64,000 nucleotides of DNA from Gammaproteobacteria bacterium (lineage in GTDB: Bacteria > Pseudomonadota > Gammaproteobacteria > Eutrophobiales > Eutrophobiaceae): assembly GCA_004297165.1 (NCBI GenBank), contig SCUJ01000001.1:62001-126000 (forward strand). The letters are read 5' to 3'. The notes under the pieces were generated by a model. That model was not told where the DNA came from. It saw nothing but the letters and a program-made list of their open reading frames with translations, and did no database searches. A program made the position numbers and the translations under genes. Below, piece after piece: positions 8,709 to 16,158 of this stretch (position 1 is its first letter; every line of letters begins with the position of its first letter).

Positions 8709-10268
8709 TCACCGCCGGCAGACGAAGTTTTCCTCCCGCTCGGAGTCGCCTGCGCCCCGATAATGGGCATGCGCGGGGAAAGGGCATAACGGACGGCTGC
8801 GGCCGGGAAACGCCGTGCCGGTCGCAGTCACCCGATCGGGCGGTGCGCCATCCTCCACCCAGCGGATGATGGCGGTCAGGAGGTCGAAGCGATCCAGGGT
8901 TGCCGATCCCCCGCCGCAGTGTCCCATCCCGGGGACCAGAAACAGGTGGCTCCACTGCGCGGTCTGTTCCTCGCCGCCGTTATCCCGCGCTAGACGCAGA
9001 TAGTAATCGACAGTATCCAGGGCCGAGAACCAGGGATCGCTGACGCCGTGATAGAAGATCAGTTTGCCGCCGCGCCCGGCGAAACTGGAGAGATTGGTCC
9101 AGAGATGGCTGTCGCCCAGACCGTTCAGCGACCCCGCGGCGACCGCGGCCTCCCGATCCACATCCTGCTCCATCGCCATGACTGGCGGACCCACCGGGCT
9201 TTGCCCCGCATGGAGGAGTCCGGGAGCGCCGCGTCCGCTGTCGCCGATGCCGATGTCATAAAGATAACCGGGGTAGACCTCGAAGCCGCGGGAGTCCTTC
9301 GGCCCGCCGAAGGCATCGTGCAGGGCCTCGACCTGCGCCGCGCTAAGACAACTTGCGTTCTTCTCCGCCTTGCATACCAGACTGGCCGGATCGAAATCGC
9401 AGCCGAGGGTATCCGCGATCAGTCCGTCGCGCATCCCGTCCCTGGCGTCGCAACTCTTGCGGAGCGAGTCCAAAATCAATTGCTTGTCCGCGTCTGAAAA
9501 TGCCTGGGAGACGATCGGTTGCCCCTGGTCGTCTTGCGGGGCGACCCGGTTGAAGGCGGTCACCAGATGCCGCATCCCGAGGTTGGAATAATCCGTGCGC
9601 ATGGCCGGGGCCCCGGCGACAATCCCGTCAAAATAGCCAGGGTAACGCTGCGACATGATCATCGCCTCGCGCCCGCCGGTGGAGCAGCCCATGAAATAAG
9701 ACCGCACCGGCTTGTTGCCATAATAGGTTGCCACGATCTCCTTCGCCGCCACGGTCACCTTGCCGACGGCCTGGTAAAAGAAGTTCAAGGCCGCCTCCTG
9801 ATCCGCAAAAAAGGCCGCATCGAACACGGTCTGGCTCTGGTGGCCGCTGTCGGTCGTCACCACCGCGAAGCCGCGGGAAAGCGCCGGGCTGTCGCCGGAG
9901 GCGACCTGTCCCAGGGGTCTCGCCACATTGCCGTTCAAACCGCCGCCGCCCTGAAACAGGAAACGGCCGTTCCAGTCATCCGGCATGGCGATGGCGAAAC
10001 CGATGGCGTAACTCGCGCCGCCAACCCCGGTACGTTTGTCGAGCATGCCCTCGACCAGGCAATGCGCCGGGAGGGGTTGCAGGATCGGCGGGGCGAACGG
10101 CGCAGCCGGCGGGATCCCCTCGGGGACTGTTTTTGCACTGGTAATTTCGAGGATCATACCCGGCAAGGTCAGGGATTGAAGCGCGACACAATCCGCAGCC
10201 GTTGCTGCACTGGCCACGAACGCCACGGACAACAGGAATAGTGTAATGACACCGGCACTAATACGCAT
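8709..10268 (-). CDS. Secreted tannase/feruloyl-esterase family protein, intact triad (copy 3)
   Basis: A 519-residue exported esterase of the tannase/feruloyl esterase family, expected to hydrolyse aromatic acid esters in the periplasm or outside the cell. The start at 10268 is favoured by a GGGGGAA Shine-Dalgarno just upstream and an immediate signal peptide (MRISAGVI... cut near ASAATA). The full CS-D-HC arrangement is present: nucleophile Ser196 in GCSTGG with the preceding Cys, an Asp in GVSDPW, and His-Cys in GMGHCGG. It is therefore the catalytically competent paralogue against which the two tandem genes at 1101-4276 can be compared. An in-frame ATG at 10301 is possible but less likely. 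Confidence 0.88.
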   Translation of the reverse strand: MRISAGVITLFLLSVAFVASAATAADCVALQSLTLPGMILEITSAKTVPEGIPPAAPFAPPILQPLPAHCLVEGMLDKRTGVGGASYAIGFAIAMPDDWNGRFLFQGGGGLNGNVARPLGQVASGDSPALSRGFAVVTTDSGHQSQTVFDAAFFADQEAALNFFYQAVGKVTVAAKEIVATYYGNKPVRSYFMGCSTGGREAMIMSQRYPGYFDGIVAGAPAMRTDYSNLGMRHLVTAFNRVAPQDDQGQPIVSQAFSDADKQLILDSLRKSCDARDGMRDGLIADTLGCDFDPASLVCKAEKNASCLSAAQVEALHDAFGGPKDSRGFEVYPGYLYDIGIGDSGRGAPGLLHAGQSPVGPPVMAMEQDVDREAAVAAGSLNGLGDSHLWTNLSSFAGRGGKLIFYHGVSDPWFSALDTVDYYLRLARDNGGEEQTAQWSHLFLVPGMGHCGGGSATLDRFDLLTAIIRWVEDGAPPDRVTATGTAFPGRSRPLCPFPAHAHYRGAGDSEREENFVCRR

Positions 10269-10421
10269 CGCGAGGTTCCCCCTTTTGTTTATTATCTCCA
10301 CATCGAGTGTGGCTATTTTGCGGCGTGCTTATATTTTTTCTCTTATGAATTTACAATCGTCCTTGAAATCGGATATGCGATATCCTCATCTTCCGTCCAA
10401 CACAAAGCTTAGCGAATCGAT

Positions 10422-12305
10422 ATGACCGGCGCACCTGCCAAATTCGGCTCCATGCTGGGTCTCGCCCCTGGCGAGGTCCCCGCGTTTTCATCCCATTACG
10501 CATCCGCGGATACCAGAGAGTATCCTGATCGCGAATCCTACCGCAGTTACCATGAAGGCATCTTCATGGGCTACAAGTGGCAATGCGTGGAGTTCGCGCG
10601 GCGCTGGTTGTACCGGAACAAGGGTTACATCTTCGACGAAGTCGGCATGGCCTACGATATTTTCCAGCTTCGCTGCGTCCGGGTGATCCGCGACAATACC
10701 CTGTTGCCGGTGCATGCCTTCAGGAACGGCAGTATCCGCCGGCCCGAACCCGGCAGCTTGTTGATCTGGGACGAGGGCGGCGAATTCGAGCATACCGGCC
10801 ATGTGGCGGTAATCACCGAGGTGTTTCCTGACCGGGTGCGGATCGTCGAACAGAACGTTGATCATCGGCCCTGGCCGCGCGGCCGGAACTACTCACGGGA
10901 ACTTGGCGCCGTGATCGACGCCGCCGGCGGTTACCATATCACCTGCACCTATGACCGGGGGGCCATCCTCGGTTGGGTCATCCAGACCAGCGATCCTTCC
11001 CATGCGGAGCCCAGGATCGAACCGGCACCGGAACTTTTCAATCTGCGCCTCGCGGAGATACCCTCGCAGCGTCCACAAGGCGCCTGGCTCGACGCCGCGC
11101 GGCCGGACGAGGCGGCCTTCATCGCCGTGGGGCGTCCCTGGCTGACCAATGCCCCGGATCTGCAACGCAGCTATTTCTGTCTCTCGGAGACCGCGTTCAC
11201 GGAGATCAAGCACGCCGCCAACGAGCTGCATGCCATGTTCATGCACGCTACGCACAAGGTGTTGAAGGACGATAGACTTCTCGCCCGCTTCAAACTGCCC
11301 CGCTCCATCTGGCCGAAGCTCCGCCAGTCCTGGAACAACCGGCGCAACCAGATGATCACGGGCCGGTTCGATTTTTCCGTCTCCAGTCGCGGCATCAAGG
11401 TCTATGAATACAATGCCGATTCCGCCTCCTGTTACCTGGAGACCGCGCGCCTGCAAGGCACTTGGTTCGACTCCTTCGGTTTCGAGGACGGGGATTGTCC
11501 GGGTAACCGGTTATATCCGGATCTGGCGCGGGCCTGGCGCAAGAGCGGCGTGGATACGGTCCTGCATATCCTCCAGGACAATGAGCCCGAGGAGACCTAT
11601 CATGCCTTGTTCATGAAGGCCGCCGTCGAGGAGGCCGGGATCCGCTGCAAGCTCGTGGTGGGCATGGAGGGCCTCGACTGGGACGCTGCGGGCTTCGTCG
11701 TGGACCGGGACGGGGAACGCATCCTCAGGGTGTGGAAGACCTGGGCCTGGGAAACGGCCCTGGATCAGTTGCGCGCGGAGTTCGATGAGGAGGAAGCCCT
11801 GTCCGCCATCAGCGATTCGCATCCCCGGACCAAACGGCCCCGCCTCGCCGATATCCTGCTGCGCAACGAGGTGGTGGTCTACGAACCCTTGTGGACGTTA
11901 ATCCCGAGCAACAAGGCGATCCTGCCTGTGCTTTGCGAGATGTTCCCCGGGCATCCCAACCTGCTGGAGGCGCGCTACGAACTGGAACCGGAGATGGCGC
12001 GTTACGGATACGTCGCCAAACCCATCGCCGGCCGCTGCGGCGCCAACATCAGCATGGTGGACCGTCATCAGGAAGTGATGCAGGAAACGGGAGGGACTTT
12101 CGGCGGGCAGGATCACATCTACCAGCAACTCTTTCCCCTGCCCAGGATCAACCGGCTCAATCTTCAGATCGGCGCCTTCACCGTAGACGGGAAATTCTCC
12201 GCCGCCTGCGTCCGCGCCGATACCTCGCCGGTGATCACCTCCGACAGCGATCTCCTGCCGCTGCGGGTGTTCGAGGACGAGGATTTATTGCCGATACAAA
12301 ATTAA
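10422..12305 (+). CDS. gss: Bifunctional glutathionylspermidine synthetase/amidase
   Basis: A 627-residue, two-domain cytoplasmic enzyme of the same size and order as Escherichia coli Gss. Residues 1 to about 200 are the CHAP-type amidase, with catalytic Cys55 in YKWQCVEFARR, His127 in TGHVAVI and a Glu in VEQNV. Residues about 220-627 are the ATP-grasp synthetase that joins glutathione to spermidine, with blocks such as KVYEYNADSASCYLE and YVAKPIAGRCGANIS. It would make and hydrolyse glutathionylspermidine, a thiol conjugate linked to redox protection. It ends tail-to-tail with the dehydrogenase gene at 12302-13423, overlapping by 4 bp. The Shine-Dalgarno is weak. Confidence 0.92.
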   Translation: MTGAPAKFGSMLGLAPGEVPAFSSHYASADTREYPDRESYRSYHEGIFMGYKWQCVEFARRWLYRNKGYIFDEVGMAYDIFQLRCVRVIRDNTLLPVHAFRNGSIRRPEPGSLLIWDEGGEFEHTGHVAVITEVFPDRVRIVEQNVDHRPWPRGRNYSRELGAVIDAAGGYHITCTYDRGAILGWVIQTSDPSHAEPRIEPAPELFNLRLAEIPSQRPQGAWLDAARPDEAAFIAVGRPWLTNAPDLQRSYFCLSETAFTEIKHAANELHAMFMHATHKVLKDDRLLARFKLPRSIWPKLRQSWNNRRNQMITGRFDFSVSSRGIKVYEYNADSASCYLETARLQGTWFDSFGFEDGDCPGNRLYPDLARAWRKSGVDTVLHILQDNEPEETYHALFMKAAVEEAGIRCKLVVGMEGLDWDAAGFVVDRDGERILRVWKTWAWETALDQLRAEFDEEEALSAISDSHPRTKRPRLADILLRNEVVVYEPLWTLIPSNKAILPVLCEMFPGHPNLLEARYELEPEMARYGYVAKPIAGRCGANISMVDRHQEVMQETGGTFGGQDHIYQQLFPLPRINRLNLQIGAFTVDGKFSAACVRADTSPVITSDSDLLPLRVFEDEDLLPIQN

Positions 12306-13423
12306 TAAAAATGCGGAGATATCCGGCTTAACAATTTCATGGCAGTCGCGTGATGCGAGGTGAGCTTGCCGCCATAGATGGTGAAGAGCCTGGGATCGGC
12401 GGGATCATCCGGCTGCAGGATGGTTTCACGGGTGCGCGTGAAAGGCGATTCCGGCGCGGCCGGGAGTACGCGCAGACCGGCGAATGAACTCAGGACATCG
12501 CCGGGAGCCAGCCCGCGCCGGAAATAATGATTGAAGATCCCGAGCAGGTATTCGATCTCCTCCACGGTCGGGGCGACGGCCTCGGGCGCGCCGCGATACG
12601 GCCGCTCCGTGGTCCCCATGAGGATATTCCCCTGCCAGGGTTGCGCGAACACGGCCCGGCGGTCCGAAGGCGATTCCAGATAATAGATCCCTTGCTGCAA
12701 GGTCCCGGGGATCACGATATGCGAGCCCGCCACCAATTCCAGTTCCCGCCGGGCGGGCACAGGCAGGACCCGATCCAGGACCTGATTCACCCACGGGCCT
12801 GAGGCATTGATGAGCATCCGTGCCCGGCATTCCAGCGTGGAACCGCCCGCGCGGTAACGGAGCAGATAACCGTCCATTTCCCGAATGGCCTCAAGGAATT
12901 CCGCCTGAAGCTGTAAAACCGCGCCGGCCCCGGTCGCCTTGCGCAGCACGGCGCGGGTCAACGCGGCGTCATCCGTGCCGGCATCGGTATAGCGGAAGAC
13001 CGCCTGAAGCCCATCAAGTCGGATCCCGTCCAGTGCCCGCCATTGTTCCCTGGGAACGCGCTGAAAACCCTTGCCCCCCAGGATCTGGTAGAGCGACAGA
13101 CCGGAGGCGATCTGCCAAGGTCGCCGTTTGCTCGCGTCATAGATGGGGATATAAAACGCCACCTCGCGCACCAGCTCCGGGAATTCGGCGAGCAGGCGCG
13201 CCCGTTCCTTGAGGCATTCCCGCACCAGATTGAACTGGGCGGTCTCCAGGTAGCGCAGTCCGCCGTGGATCAACTTGCTGGAGCGGCTCGATGTGCCCTG
13301 GGCCGCCGCGGAATACTGTTCGAGGACCAGACAGGAAAAACCGCGCTCGGTGGCGACCCTCGCGCAGGCGGCGCCGTGGATGCCGGCGCCGATGATGACG
13401 ATGTCAAATCGTTGTATCTCCAT
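12302..13423 (-). CDS. FAD-dependent glycerol-3-phosphate dehydrogenase, short form
   Basis: A 373-residue flavoprotein of the GlpD/DAO family, expected to oxidise sn-glycerol-3-phosphate to dihydroxyacetone phosphate and pass electrons to quinone. It has the Rossmann dinucleotide motif IIGAGIHGAACA, then the GlpD signature SSRSSKLIHGGLRYLE. GlpD proteins of about 500 residues have an extra C-terminal helical domain that is absent here; the protein stops at the end of the FAD/substrate domain. It is the downstream gene of the kinase-phosphodiesterase fusion, 25 bp after its stop, so the two form an operon that would channel glycerophosphodiesters into glycolysis. Confidence 0.8.
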   Translation of the reverse strand: MEIQRFDIVIIGAGIHGAACARVATERGFSCLVLEQYSAAAQGTSSRSSKLIHGGLRYLETAQFNLVRECLKERARLLAEFPELVREVAFYIPIYDASKRRPWQIASGLSLYQILGGKGFQRVPREQWRALDGIRLDGLQAVFRYTDAGTDDAALTRAVLRKATGAGAVLQLQAEFLEAIREMDGYLLRYRAGGSTLECRARMLINASGPWVNQVLDRVLPVPARRELELVAGSHIVIPGTLQQGIYYLESPSDRRAVFAQPWQGNILMGTTERPYRGAPEAVAPTVEEIEYLLGIFNHYFRRGLAPGDVLSSFAGLRVLPAAPESPFTRTRETILQPDDPADPRLFTIYGGKLTSHHATAMKLLSRISPHFY

Positions 13424-13448: not shown

Positions 13449-15605
13449 CTAATGACATTCTTTTAACTCACTCACCGCCGCGGTCGAGATCCAGTCGACC
13501 CCGAGCCGATAATACTGCCCGGCCAATTCCCGGTCATTGATCTCGTAGACCATCCAGTCCCAGGGACCCGGCCAGGGCGGCTCGCCGGTCAGCTTCTCGT
13601 GGTTCACGATCAGATAATCCGGCAGCAATCGTTCGGCTGCCGCACGGTGCGCGGCATCGTATTCGCGCAGGACCCAACCGATGGCGAGGGCCGAATTGCG
13701 GCGCGCGTACTCCAGGCACTCGTGCTCGAAGGAGATGAGAATGCAATGCTTACCGTTATCGCGCAAGTCCGCCAGCAGCCGGCGCATGACCTTTTCAATT
13801 CCGAAATGATCGAGGGTATGCCGCTTGACCTCGGCAAAGAACAGGACGCGGGGGTGCGCCGCCATCACCTCGATCACCTGACCCAGATCGGGTATACGTT
13901 CCTTCGCGAGGTCTTCCGCCGCTGACAGAATGGCGAATTGCTTCAATTGCTCCCGGCTGTAATCGAAGATGCGGCCTTGCTCGCCCGTCATGCGGGCGAG
14001 GGTCTCATCGTGAAAGATCATCGGTTCTGCATCCCGGCTGAACTGGATATCGAACTCCACCGCGTCCGCGCCGGAGTCAATCGCCGCCGTTATTGAAGTG
14101 AGGGTATTCTCAGCGTGACGGCCGCGATAGCCGCGGTGCGCGACGATGCGCGGAATTTTATTCAGTCGGGTGGTGGTGTCCGATTCCCGGCGCCAGTCCG
14201 CCTTTGCGCCAAGCGCCGTGAGTAACACATGGCGGTAATGACGATAGCGCCGCTTGAGGGCGGGATTTGTACGGGGCGTGAAGAGTTCAGGCTGTTCCTG
14301 TGTCCAGGGCTGATCTGAACCGAGCGCCAGCCAGGCGACGCCACGCGCCGTCGCCTCGTGGTCCGTGGTTCGCGCAACGGGTATCCCCGCGAGATCGGCG
14401 AGCCTCTGGCAGAGTCCATCGAGCCGGGACAGGCCGCCGCTGATCCGGATCTTTTGAATCGAATCCCGCGCCATCTCGGCGAGGTTGTCCAGCAGCATGA
14501 ACAGGATGCTCTCCATGATGGCGATTATTCGTTTGGCGCGATCCGCATTTTCCGGGACAAAGCACATGGGCGCCTGATCGATCCACCAGGGCGAGCCGAG
14601 ACCGCCGATTGTGTTGATGCAGATCGGCGGATCGACAACATCTGCAAGCCATTGCGTCATGAGTTGCCGGAACTCTTCTTCCGTTTCCTGTTCCCGCATG
14701 GCGTCCACCGCCGATCCTGCGCCGTTGACTGTACCCTCAAGCAGATAATCCACATGATTATCCCGGCTGACGGCGATCCCCCCGAGGAGGCGCTCGTGCC
14801 GCGGCGGGTTGACGCCGGCCTCGCGCAGGACGAAGGCCCCGCTGCCGATGTTGATAAGCGCAGTGTCCGCCGCCGGGATACCCTCGGCATGAATGGCCGC
14901 GTTCTGGTCGCCGCACACACAGCACAGTTCGATGTCATGACCGATCAGCGAACCGTATTCCGCGAGGGTCGTCCGGCACTCCGGCAGGATCGACCGTGGG
15001 ATCTCGAAGAGCGCCAGCAACTCGGGGCTCCAGTCCAGCCGGCGGAGATCGAAGAGGAGACTGCGCGCGGCGTTGCTGTGATCGACCACATGAGGCTTAC
15101 CGCATAATAAATTGGCGCAGAGAAAGGATGCCAGAGGACCGACGCAGAGGCGGCCGGATTGAAACACCGCTTGCACCGCGCGGTCGTTTTCGAGCAGCCA
15201 CTTGATCTTGCCCGCGAGATAATGCGGCGAGAGCGGCAGACCGGTGATGGCATGGATTGCGGCGGCGCGATCCGCGTAGGGTTGCAGCAGATTCGCGGCG
15301 CGTCGATCCTGCCAGCTTATGGCAGGGGCAAGCGGTTCTCCCGTCTCGCGATCCCAGGCCACCAAGGTGGAGCGTTGCGTGGCAAGTCCGGCACTCTTCA
15401 CTTGGACGCTGATTTTCTCCAGTACTGTGTCGATCACGCCGCGCACGGATTGCAGGATCTCCACTGCGTTCTGTTCCACCTGCACCGCGTCAAGCCGGCG
15501 CAGGGCGACAGGTTGCATGGCCACGGCCAGGATCCTCCCGGCAGTGTCGAACACGACGGCACGGCTCGCGTGGGTCCCCTGATCGATGGCGAGAATGGCG
15601 GACAT
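13449..15605 (-). CDS. Fusion protein: FGGY-family (glycerol-kinase-like) kinase + glycerophosphodiester phosphodiesterase
   Basis: A 718-residue two-domain protein. Residues 1 to about 465 are an FGGY kinase close to GlpK: phosphate-binding DQGTHASRA at 8-16 and the catalytic Asp233 in CGDQNAA. Residues about 484-718 are a GDPD TIM barrel with all expected residues: His490-Arg491, Glu499, Glu517/Asp519 and His532-Asp533. GDPD would release glycerol-3-phosphate from glycerophosphodiesters. In the kinase, two glycerol-contacting positions of GlpK differ by eye: the Glu of the QRET motif is Ser79 and the pocket Tyr is His128, so the phosphorylated substrate may not be glycerol. The in-frame join is continuous and no stop or frameshift separates the domains. 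It is followed by the short GlpD-type gene. Confidence 0.85.
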   Translation of the reverse strand: MSAILAIDQGTHASRAVVFDTAGRILAVAMQPVALRRLDAVQVEQNAVEILQSVRGVIDTVLEKISVQVKSAGLATQRSTLVAWDRETGEPLAPAISWQDRRAANLLQPYADRAAAIHAITGLPLSPHYLAGKIKWLLENDRAVQAVFQSGRLCVGPLASFLCANLLCGKPHVVDHSNAARSLLFDLRRLDWSPELLALFEIPRSILPECRTTLAEYGSLIGHDIELCCVCGDQNAAIHAEGIPAADTALINIGSGAFVLREAGVNPPRHERLLGGIAVSRDNHVDYLLEGTVNGAGSAVDAMREQETEEEFRQLMTQWLADVVDPPICINTIGGLGSPWWIDQAPMCFVPENADRAKRIIAIMESILFMLLDNLAEMARDSIQKIRISGGLSRLDGLCQRLADLAGIPVARTTDHEATARGVAWLALGSDQPWTQEQPELFTPRTNPALKRRYRHYRHVLLTALGAKADWRRESDTTTRLNKIPRIVAHRGYRGRHAENTLTSITAAIDSGADAVEFDIQFSRDAEPMIFHDETLARMTGEQGRIFDYSREQLKQFAILSAAEDLAKERIPDLGQVIEVMAAHPRVLFFAEVKRHTLDHFGIEKVMRRLLADLRDNGKHCILISFEHECLEYARRNSALAIGWVLREYDAAHRAAAERLLPDYLIVNHEKLTGEPPWPGPWDWMVYEINDRELAGQYYRLGVDWISTAAVSELKECH

Positions 15606-15738: not shown

Positions 15739-16158
15739 ATGAACATGCTTGCAGAATTCAAGGATTTCGCCATGCGCGGCAACGTCGCGGACATGGCGGT
15801 CGGCATCATCATCGGGGGCGCCTTCGGCAAGATCGTCAGTTCACTCGTAAACGATGTCATCATGCCACCCATAGGTTTGTTGATGGGCAATGTGGACTTC
15901 TCCAATCTGGTCATCACATTGCAAGACAAGACTGCCGAGACCGAGGCGGTTACGCTGCGTTATGGCGTATTCATCAACACCACACTTGATTTTATAATTG
16001 TCGCCTTCGCCATATTCCTGCTCATCAAACAGATGAACCGCTTCAGAAAGAAAGAGGAAACCCCCGTGGCGCCTAATGTGAAAGAATGTCCGAAATGCAT
16101 AAGCAAGATCGATATCAGGGCAATCCGTTGCCCGCATTGCACTTCCGATATCGCTTAG
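15739..16158 (+). CDS. mscL: Large-conductance mechanosensitive channel with C-terminal zinc ribbon
   Basis: A 139-residue inner-membrane channel that opens under hypo-osmotic shock to release solutes. The N-terminal block [24 protein letters not shown] and a second membrane helix around residues 77-95 ([11 protein letters not shown]) are diagnostic of MscL. The C-terminus carries two cysteine pairs (CPKC and CPHC, about residues 115-134) that form a small rubredoxin-like zinc ribbon, found in a subset of MscL proteins instead of the usual helical bundle. A good GGGGGAT Shine-Dalgarno precedes the start by about 7 nt. Confidence 0.93.

Follow-up and report, generated by a model that had tools for sequence, protein, structure and literature searches.

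The fused gene and its neighbour

The window, i.e. the whole 64,000-nucleotide stretch of gammaproteobacterial DNA that was analysed (contig SCUJ01000001.1, positions 62,001 to 126,000), contains a minus-strand gene in which a GlpK-like FGGY kinase is joined to a GDPD phosphodiesterase. The gene is an uninterrupted frame of 718 codons, from ATG to stop, that occupies exactly 13449-15605. This bears out the preliminary description, which had claimed that one frame encodes an FGGY kinase and a complete GDPD barrel, and all three Pfam domains scored above their cut-offs (Table 1). The kinase half belongs to the FGGY family on the strength of its two Pfam domains and the presence of the catalytic residue Asp233. 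The C-terminal half belongs to the GDPD family, given a PF03009 match at residues 490-653 (89.9 bits against a Pfam cut-off of 23.6) and the retention of His490, Glu499-Asn500, Glu517, Asp519, His532, Glu592 and Lys594. Of these, His490, Glu499, Glu517, Asp519 and His532 belong to the HR..EN, E.D and HD motifs, and the set presumably includes the catalytic residues.

Among the NCBIfam models, the C-terminal half scored best with PRK09454/NF006989, the cytoplasmic glycerophosphodiester phosphodiesterase UgpQ. At 84.3 bits this match lies under the equivalog cut-off of 264, and, unlike UgpQ, the GDPD considered here is a domain of a kinase. An AlphaFold2 model of the fused protein, built with 20 aligned sequences, had a mean pLDDT of 90.5 and a pTM of 0.84. 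The GC level at third codon positions was 0.74 in the kinase, 0.69 in the linker and 0.75 in the GDPD part. Upstream of His490, as far back as residue 426, GTG460 is the only other start codon in frame, so separate translation of the GDPD half is not obvious.

The short GlpD encoded downstream resembles aerobic GlpD (PRK12266/NF008899), its best NCBIfam match, but the score of 279.9 bits is below the equivalog cut-off of 360. Only DAO and overlapping FAD/NAD models were matched in Pfam, with no other C-terminal domain.

Table 1. Coordinates of the features discussed, numbered from the first nucleotide of the window
Feature	Position	Strand	Evidence
Short GlpD of 373 aa with no domain but DAO; lies 25 bp downstream of the fused gene	12302..13423	-	Pfam DAO, 173.2 bits; same neighbour in relatives
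Fused gene, GlpK-like FGGY kinase and GDPD phosphodiesterase, 718 aa	13449..15605	-	Single open frame; Pfam FGGY_N, FGGY_C and GDPD; AlphaFold2 model
GDPD barrel, aa 486-718	13452..14150	-	Pfam GDPD at 490-653; phmmer match to PDB 2pz0 at 487-644
Low-confidence linker, aa 472-482	14160..14192	-	Sole stretch of at least 3 residues with pLDDT < 50
FGGY_C domain, aa 253-428	14322..14849	-	Pfam, 65.9 bits (cut-off 27)
Asp233, at GlpK catalytic Asp245	14907..14909	-	Invariant: 80/80 loci, 48/48 rows
FGGY_N domain, aa 4-220	14946..15596	-	Pfam, 147.1 bits (cut-off 28.8)
His128, at GlpK Tyr135	15222..15224	-	Alignments; 80 loci of named genomes, partly selected by a pattern: 79 His, 1 Tyr
Ser79, at GlpK Glu84	15369..15371	-	Alignments; 80 loci of named genomes: 62 Ser, 18 Ala

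Kinship of the kinase half to glycerol kinases

Profile searches gave the kinase half 273.5 bits with TIGR01311, the GlpK equivalog model, versus 101.9 with XylB, and comparison with PDB sequences also placed it closest to glycerol kinases. When the model was subjected to VIA alignment, the first 33 rows were glycerol kinases or glycerol-kinase-like proteins (Z 41.9-49.6, rmsd 2.2-3.8, 444-469 residues aligned), and the first row of another kind was a gluconate kinase at Z 40.9. GDPD structures were absent from this list, which hardly tests residues past 470. As a GlpK equivalog the kinase half fails, scoring about 274 bits (273.5-274.7) against a cut-off of 590.35.

Residues of the glycerol pocket

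Pocket residues were read by alignment to E. coli GlpK (b3926; NC_000913.3), in mature GlpK numbering. Residues R78, S79, W98, H128, Y129, D233 and F258 of the fused protein correspond to R83, E84, W103, Y135, F136, D245 and F270 of GlpK, and Asp8, Arg15 and Gln234 also stand at the corresponding GlpK positions. The fused protein is thus like GlpK in its two FGGY domains, its fold and its equivalents of R83, W103, D245 and F270, but unlike GlpK in having Ser at E84, His at Y135, a fused GDPD and a five-residue gap where the fructose-1,6-bisphosphate loop of E. coli GlpK aligns. These alignments agree with the earlier proposal that Ser79 and His128 replace two GlpK contacts while Asp233 is kept. 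The residue after His128 is Tyr, where GlpK has Phe, and might restore a hydrogen bond. One published analysis lists R83, E84, Y135, D245 and F270 as the residues that determine the specificity of GlpK, and has four of them forming hydrogen bonds to glycerol (PMC3245297). Read in this order, the fused protein has R, S, H, D and F, so that three of the five positions are retained and the GlpK signature as a whole is not.

Because the 80-locus set of Table 1 had been fetched in part with a search pattern containing the His, the count was redone on 48 rows from a whole-protein search, in which one gene appears twice (G275 and G275b). At the E84 equivalent these rows had Ser (43), Ala (3) or a gap (2), and never Glu in the 46 ungapped rows; at the Y135 equivalent they had His (42), Tyr (4), Asp (1) or a gap (1). 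Both Glu and Tyr were retained in all nine canonical GlpK rows. In a kinase tree that omits G275b, G100, G263 and G045, the altered-pocket kinases were separate from canonical GlpK.

Judged from these alignments, the altered pocket is not peculiar to the fusion but marks a large, mostly unfused clade of GlpK-like kinases. With most of the clade unfused, the change cannot have been a response to being linked to a GDPD in one polypeptide. The departure from GlpK at two published specificity positions therefore stands, but its connection with the fusion does not. The clade may be identical to a proteobacterial glycerol-kinase-like FGGY subgroup of CDD.

A divergent FGGY-like protein was encountered in G045 (L041:3134-4615, plus strand). 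It has 33% identity to the kinase of the fused protein and has lost the equivalents of R83, E84, W103, D245 and F270, and on these residues is likely to be a pseudokinase.

Arrangement of the genes in relatives

In several relatives (G172, G241, G232, G371, G361 and G116), separate adjacent genes lie on one strand in the order FGGY-GDPD-GlpD, and in others a GDPD-GlpD pair lies upstream of, or convergent with, the clade kinase. Among the 80 loci of named genomes, a GDPD match was present in 35, a GlpD match in 38 (including five canonical-like ones at ≤33% identity), both in 32 and a fusion in none; the 39 loci with neither neighbour include many on short contigs. The same slot beside the short GlpD and GDPD is occupied in G046 by a canonical GlpK, which scored 692.8 bits against the cut-off of 590.35. 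Within a few kb of the clade kinase, two Rhodoferax loci (L093 and L143) carry a weakly matching FGGY piece and a GlpD. Overall, the GDPD-short GlpD pair looks like the core unit. Such pairs were also seen with no clade kinase in the region read (L235:4858-6952, L236:4007-6024, L237:2433-4334 and L204:4650-6681).

A bifunctional aldolase/short-chain dehydrogenase (SDR) of 656-661 residues is encoded directly after the short GlpD in some relatives. The example at L182:8156-10129 (plus strand) scored 1135.6 bits with NF006196 (cut-off 831), and others were found at L180, L193, L198, L199, L204, L139 and L223. A search of the source genome for this aldolase/SDR fusion returned matches to the SDR part only, and the idea that the protein belongs to the module throughout was rejected for that genome.

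Co-occurrence across genomes

A draw of 369 genomes from the class gave 89 with a match at 1e-60, of which 67 were counted as carrying the clade kinase. Those left out were 18 over the GlpK cut-off together with G045 (pseudokinase-like), G100 (truncated), G122 and G271; three of these last four carry the short GlpD. With the short GlpD defined by a score of at least 402.6 bits (70 genomes), both genes were present in 57 genomes, the clade kinase only in 10, the short GlpD only in 13 and neither in 289. The short GlpD thus occurs in 57/67 clade genomes versus 13/302 others (Fisher p 1e-43, ignoring phylogeny). Canonical GlpK showed the opposite tendency, being present in 3/67 clade genomes versus 93/302 others (Fisher p 1e-6, ignoring phylogeny; both 3, clade only 64, canonical only 93, neither 209). 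Counted by family, with the 182 families taken as sampled, the short GlpD was found in 32/39 clade families versus 7/143 others (p 4e-22), and canonical GlpK in 5/39 versus 60/143 (p 6e-4).

Within the source genome, the fused gene is the sole FGGY match, the sole GDPD match and the sole match to the GlpK profile, and there is a single GlpD match. A search of the same genome for a MIP/GlpF channel found none.

One scan with the kinase alignment yielded 502 stretches encoding relatives, not all of which are necessarily clade members. An earlier scan of genome contigs for close relatives, with the fused protein as query, had returned none. At 1e-70, the only match in a draw of 349 genomes from the phylum was the fused gene's own; the clade may be uncommon beyond the lineages in which it was seen, unless this draw missed it. 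Of the matches in 736 plasmid records, none reached 60% identity or extended over 80% of the query, and the 15 listed among them were all annotated glpK.

Recurrence of the fusion

The preliminary description had suggested looking for FGGY-GDPD fusions elsewhere, and fused frames were indeed present in other genomes. Those of G278 (717 residues) and G124 (720 residues) are full length, and that of G373, from the same genus as G278, reaches 609 residues before the contig ends. In G006, which belongs to the same family as the source, the kinase part is frameshifted and its C-terminal part is continuous with the GDPD. At this locus (L031:8961-11200, minus strand) the kinase part is divided between two overlapping frames, by either a frameshift or a sequence error. 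With the source included, 4/67 clade genomes in the class draw carry a fusion, as does G006; tandem genes and fusions were distinguished only in regions actually read. Twenty additional regions were searched for further kinase-GDPD or GDPD-GlpD fusions and gave none, the long open frames being overlaps in other frames. The only other genome of the source genus, which is 76% complete, gave no match.

In the kinase tree the fused forms lie on three branches, and the fused and unfused states require three changes. A single clade for all five fused rows was rejected (p 0.0228), but a single clade for the four rows other than G124 was not (p 0.152). Joining of the kinase to the GDPD has probably happened more than once. 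A search by title of open-licence papers found no description of a glycerol kinase-GDPD fusion.

Proposed function and alternatives

Enzymes of this GDPD type release glycerol-3-phosphate (G3P) and an alcohol, kinases of the GlpK type convert glycerol to G3P, and GlpD converts G3P to dihydroxyacetone phosphate (DHAP). On balance, the fused protein and the short GlpD probably make up a salvage module that leads from G3P to DHAP, the kinase taking the place of GlpK and having glycerol as its likeliest substrate. The GDPD half would convert glycerophosphodiesters from phospholipid turnover to G3P and a head-group alcohol, the kinase half would form G3P from glycerol and ATP, and the co-directional short GlpD would pass the G3P on to DHAP. 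Two sources of G3P would in this way be combined with one sink. The glycerol used could include that freed by the GDPD half from glycerophosphoglycerol, in which case both products would become G3P. The ancestral state would have been a kinase and a GDPD encoded by separate adjacent genes, fused more than once by loss of the boundary; the protein is presumed to be cytoplasmic, and any benefit of the fusion is likewise presumed.

Glycerol is favoured because canonical GlpK is nearly excluded from clade genomes and stands in the same slot in G046. Together with the adjoining short GlpD, these findings leave the suggestion that the fusion phosphorylates a head-group alcohol rather than glycerol unsupported as written, although the two ideas coincide where phosphatidylglycerol supplies glycerol as the head group. 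Several points count against glycerol salvage: the kinase scores far under the GlpK cut-off; the source genome has no MIP/GlpF channel match; an aldolase/SDR follows the operon in some relatives; almost half of the named loci, many of them on short contigs, have neither neighbour; three genomes have both kinases; and the two Rhodoferax loci have the arrangement described above. Conserved change at two of the five GlpK positions, as read from the alignments, also counts against glycerol and often means a different substrate.

Because of those two changed positions, a different substrate is possible, if less probable than glycerol. The clade would then be a separate isofunctional FGGY group acting on a ketose, a derivative of glycerol or a different polyol and feeding the DHAP node by another route, and the fused kinases may use the alcohol released by the GDPD. 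The replacement of Glu in all 46 ungapped rows and of Tyr by His in 42 of 47, both at sites of the GlpK signature in the cited text (PMC3245297), would fit such a group, as would the gap at the E. coli bisphosphate loop, the aldolase/SDR adjoining the operon in a subset and the coexistence with canonical-like glp genes in L093 and L143. Against it, the clade kinase is closest to GlpK by profile and fold, the exclusion of canonical GlpK and its place in G046 would be unexpected, and the source genome has the fused gene as its sole FGGY and, with matches to the SDR part only, no aldolase/SDR fusion. A bolder version, which we consider rather unlikely, is that R-S-H-D-F represents an undescribed FGGY specificity for a non-glycerol alcohol from glycerophosphodiester or ether-lipid breakdown; repeated fusion would then channel the GDPD-released alcohol to the kinase, one chain salvaging both products.

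It is very improbable that the kinase half is dead or purely regulatory and that the fused protein acts as a GDPD. The residue losses of the G045 protein indicate that decay occurs among such proteins, but here Asp8, Arg15, Arg78, Trp98, Asp233, Gln234 and Phe258 all stand at GlpK positions, and the D245 equivalent is invariant in both sets (Table 1). An error of sequencing or assembly that merged two neighbouring genes is scarcely credible as the origin of the fusion, and we consider it refuted: one lost stop would suffice, given that the unfused genes are adjacent in this order in many relatives, and the kinase part of G006 is itself frameshifted, but GC at third positions is even across the gene and fused frames recur in G278, G124, G373 and the C-terminal part of G006.

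Comparison with known systems

The Mycoplasma glycerophosphodiesterase route employs an H2O2-forming oxidase, and its enzymes are separate proteins. As far as the published account goes, the GlpQ route of these organisms resembles the proposed module in taking deacylated phospholipid to G3P through a glycerophosphodiesterase joined to glycerol metabolism (PMC3178575). The closest published context is the PA3026-PA3024 operon of Pseudomonas aeruginosa, part of the GliR regulon, which places an FGGY kinase beside a GlpD homologue (PMC8151288). In the text of that report, its third gene encodes an FAD oxidoreductase rather than a GDPD and there is no fusion; PA3024 is proposed to phosphorylate glycerol, its deletion caused no growth defect on glycerol, and carriers of the cluster outside Pseudomonas are described as having no glpD and glpK homologues (PMC8151288). 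For PA3026, a route through alkylglycerol phosphate has been proposed.

The fusion offers a testable case of the repeated joining of two enzymes that yield one metabolite, G3P, and a considerable number of kinases that score far under the GlpK threshold appear to replace GlpK where it is missing. The substrate of one clade member would extend the pocket rules of glycerol kinases or add an FGGY specificity, and would settle the annotation in many gammaproteobacterial genomes.

Other genes near the fused gene

Divergent from the fused gene, a plus-strand gene at 15739-16158 encodes MscL with a C-terminal tail that carries two CxxC pairs (CPKC and CPHC). On the other side, a plus-strand gene for a glutathionylspermidine amidase/synthase-like protein (10422-12305; NF007801, 873.4 bits, just below the cut-off of 882) is convergent with the short GlpD gene, the two ends overlapping at 12302-12305. 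Beyond it, on the minus strand at 8709-10301, lies the gene for a tannase/feruloyl esterase family protein (PF07519, 362 bits).
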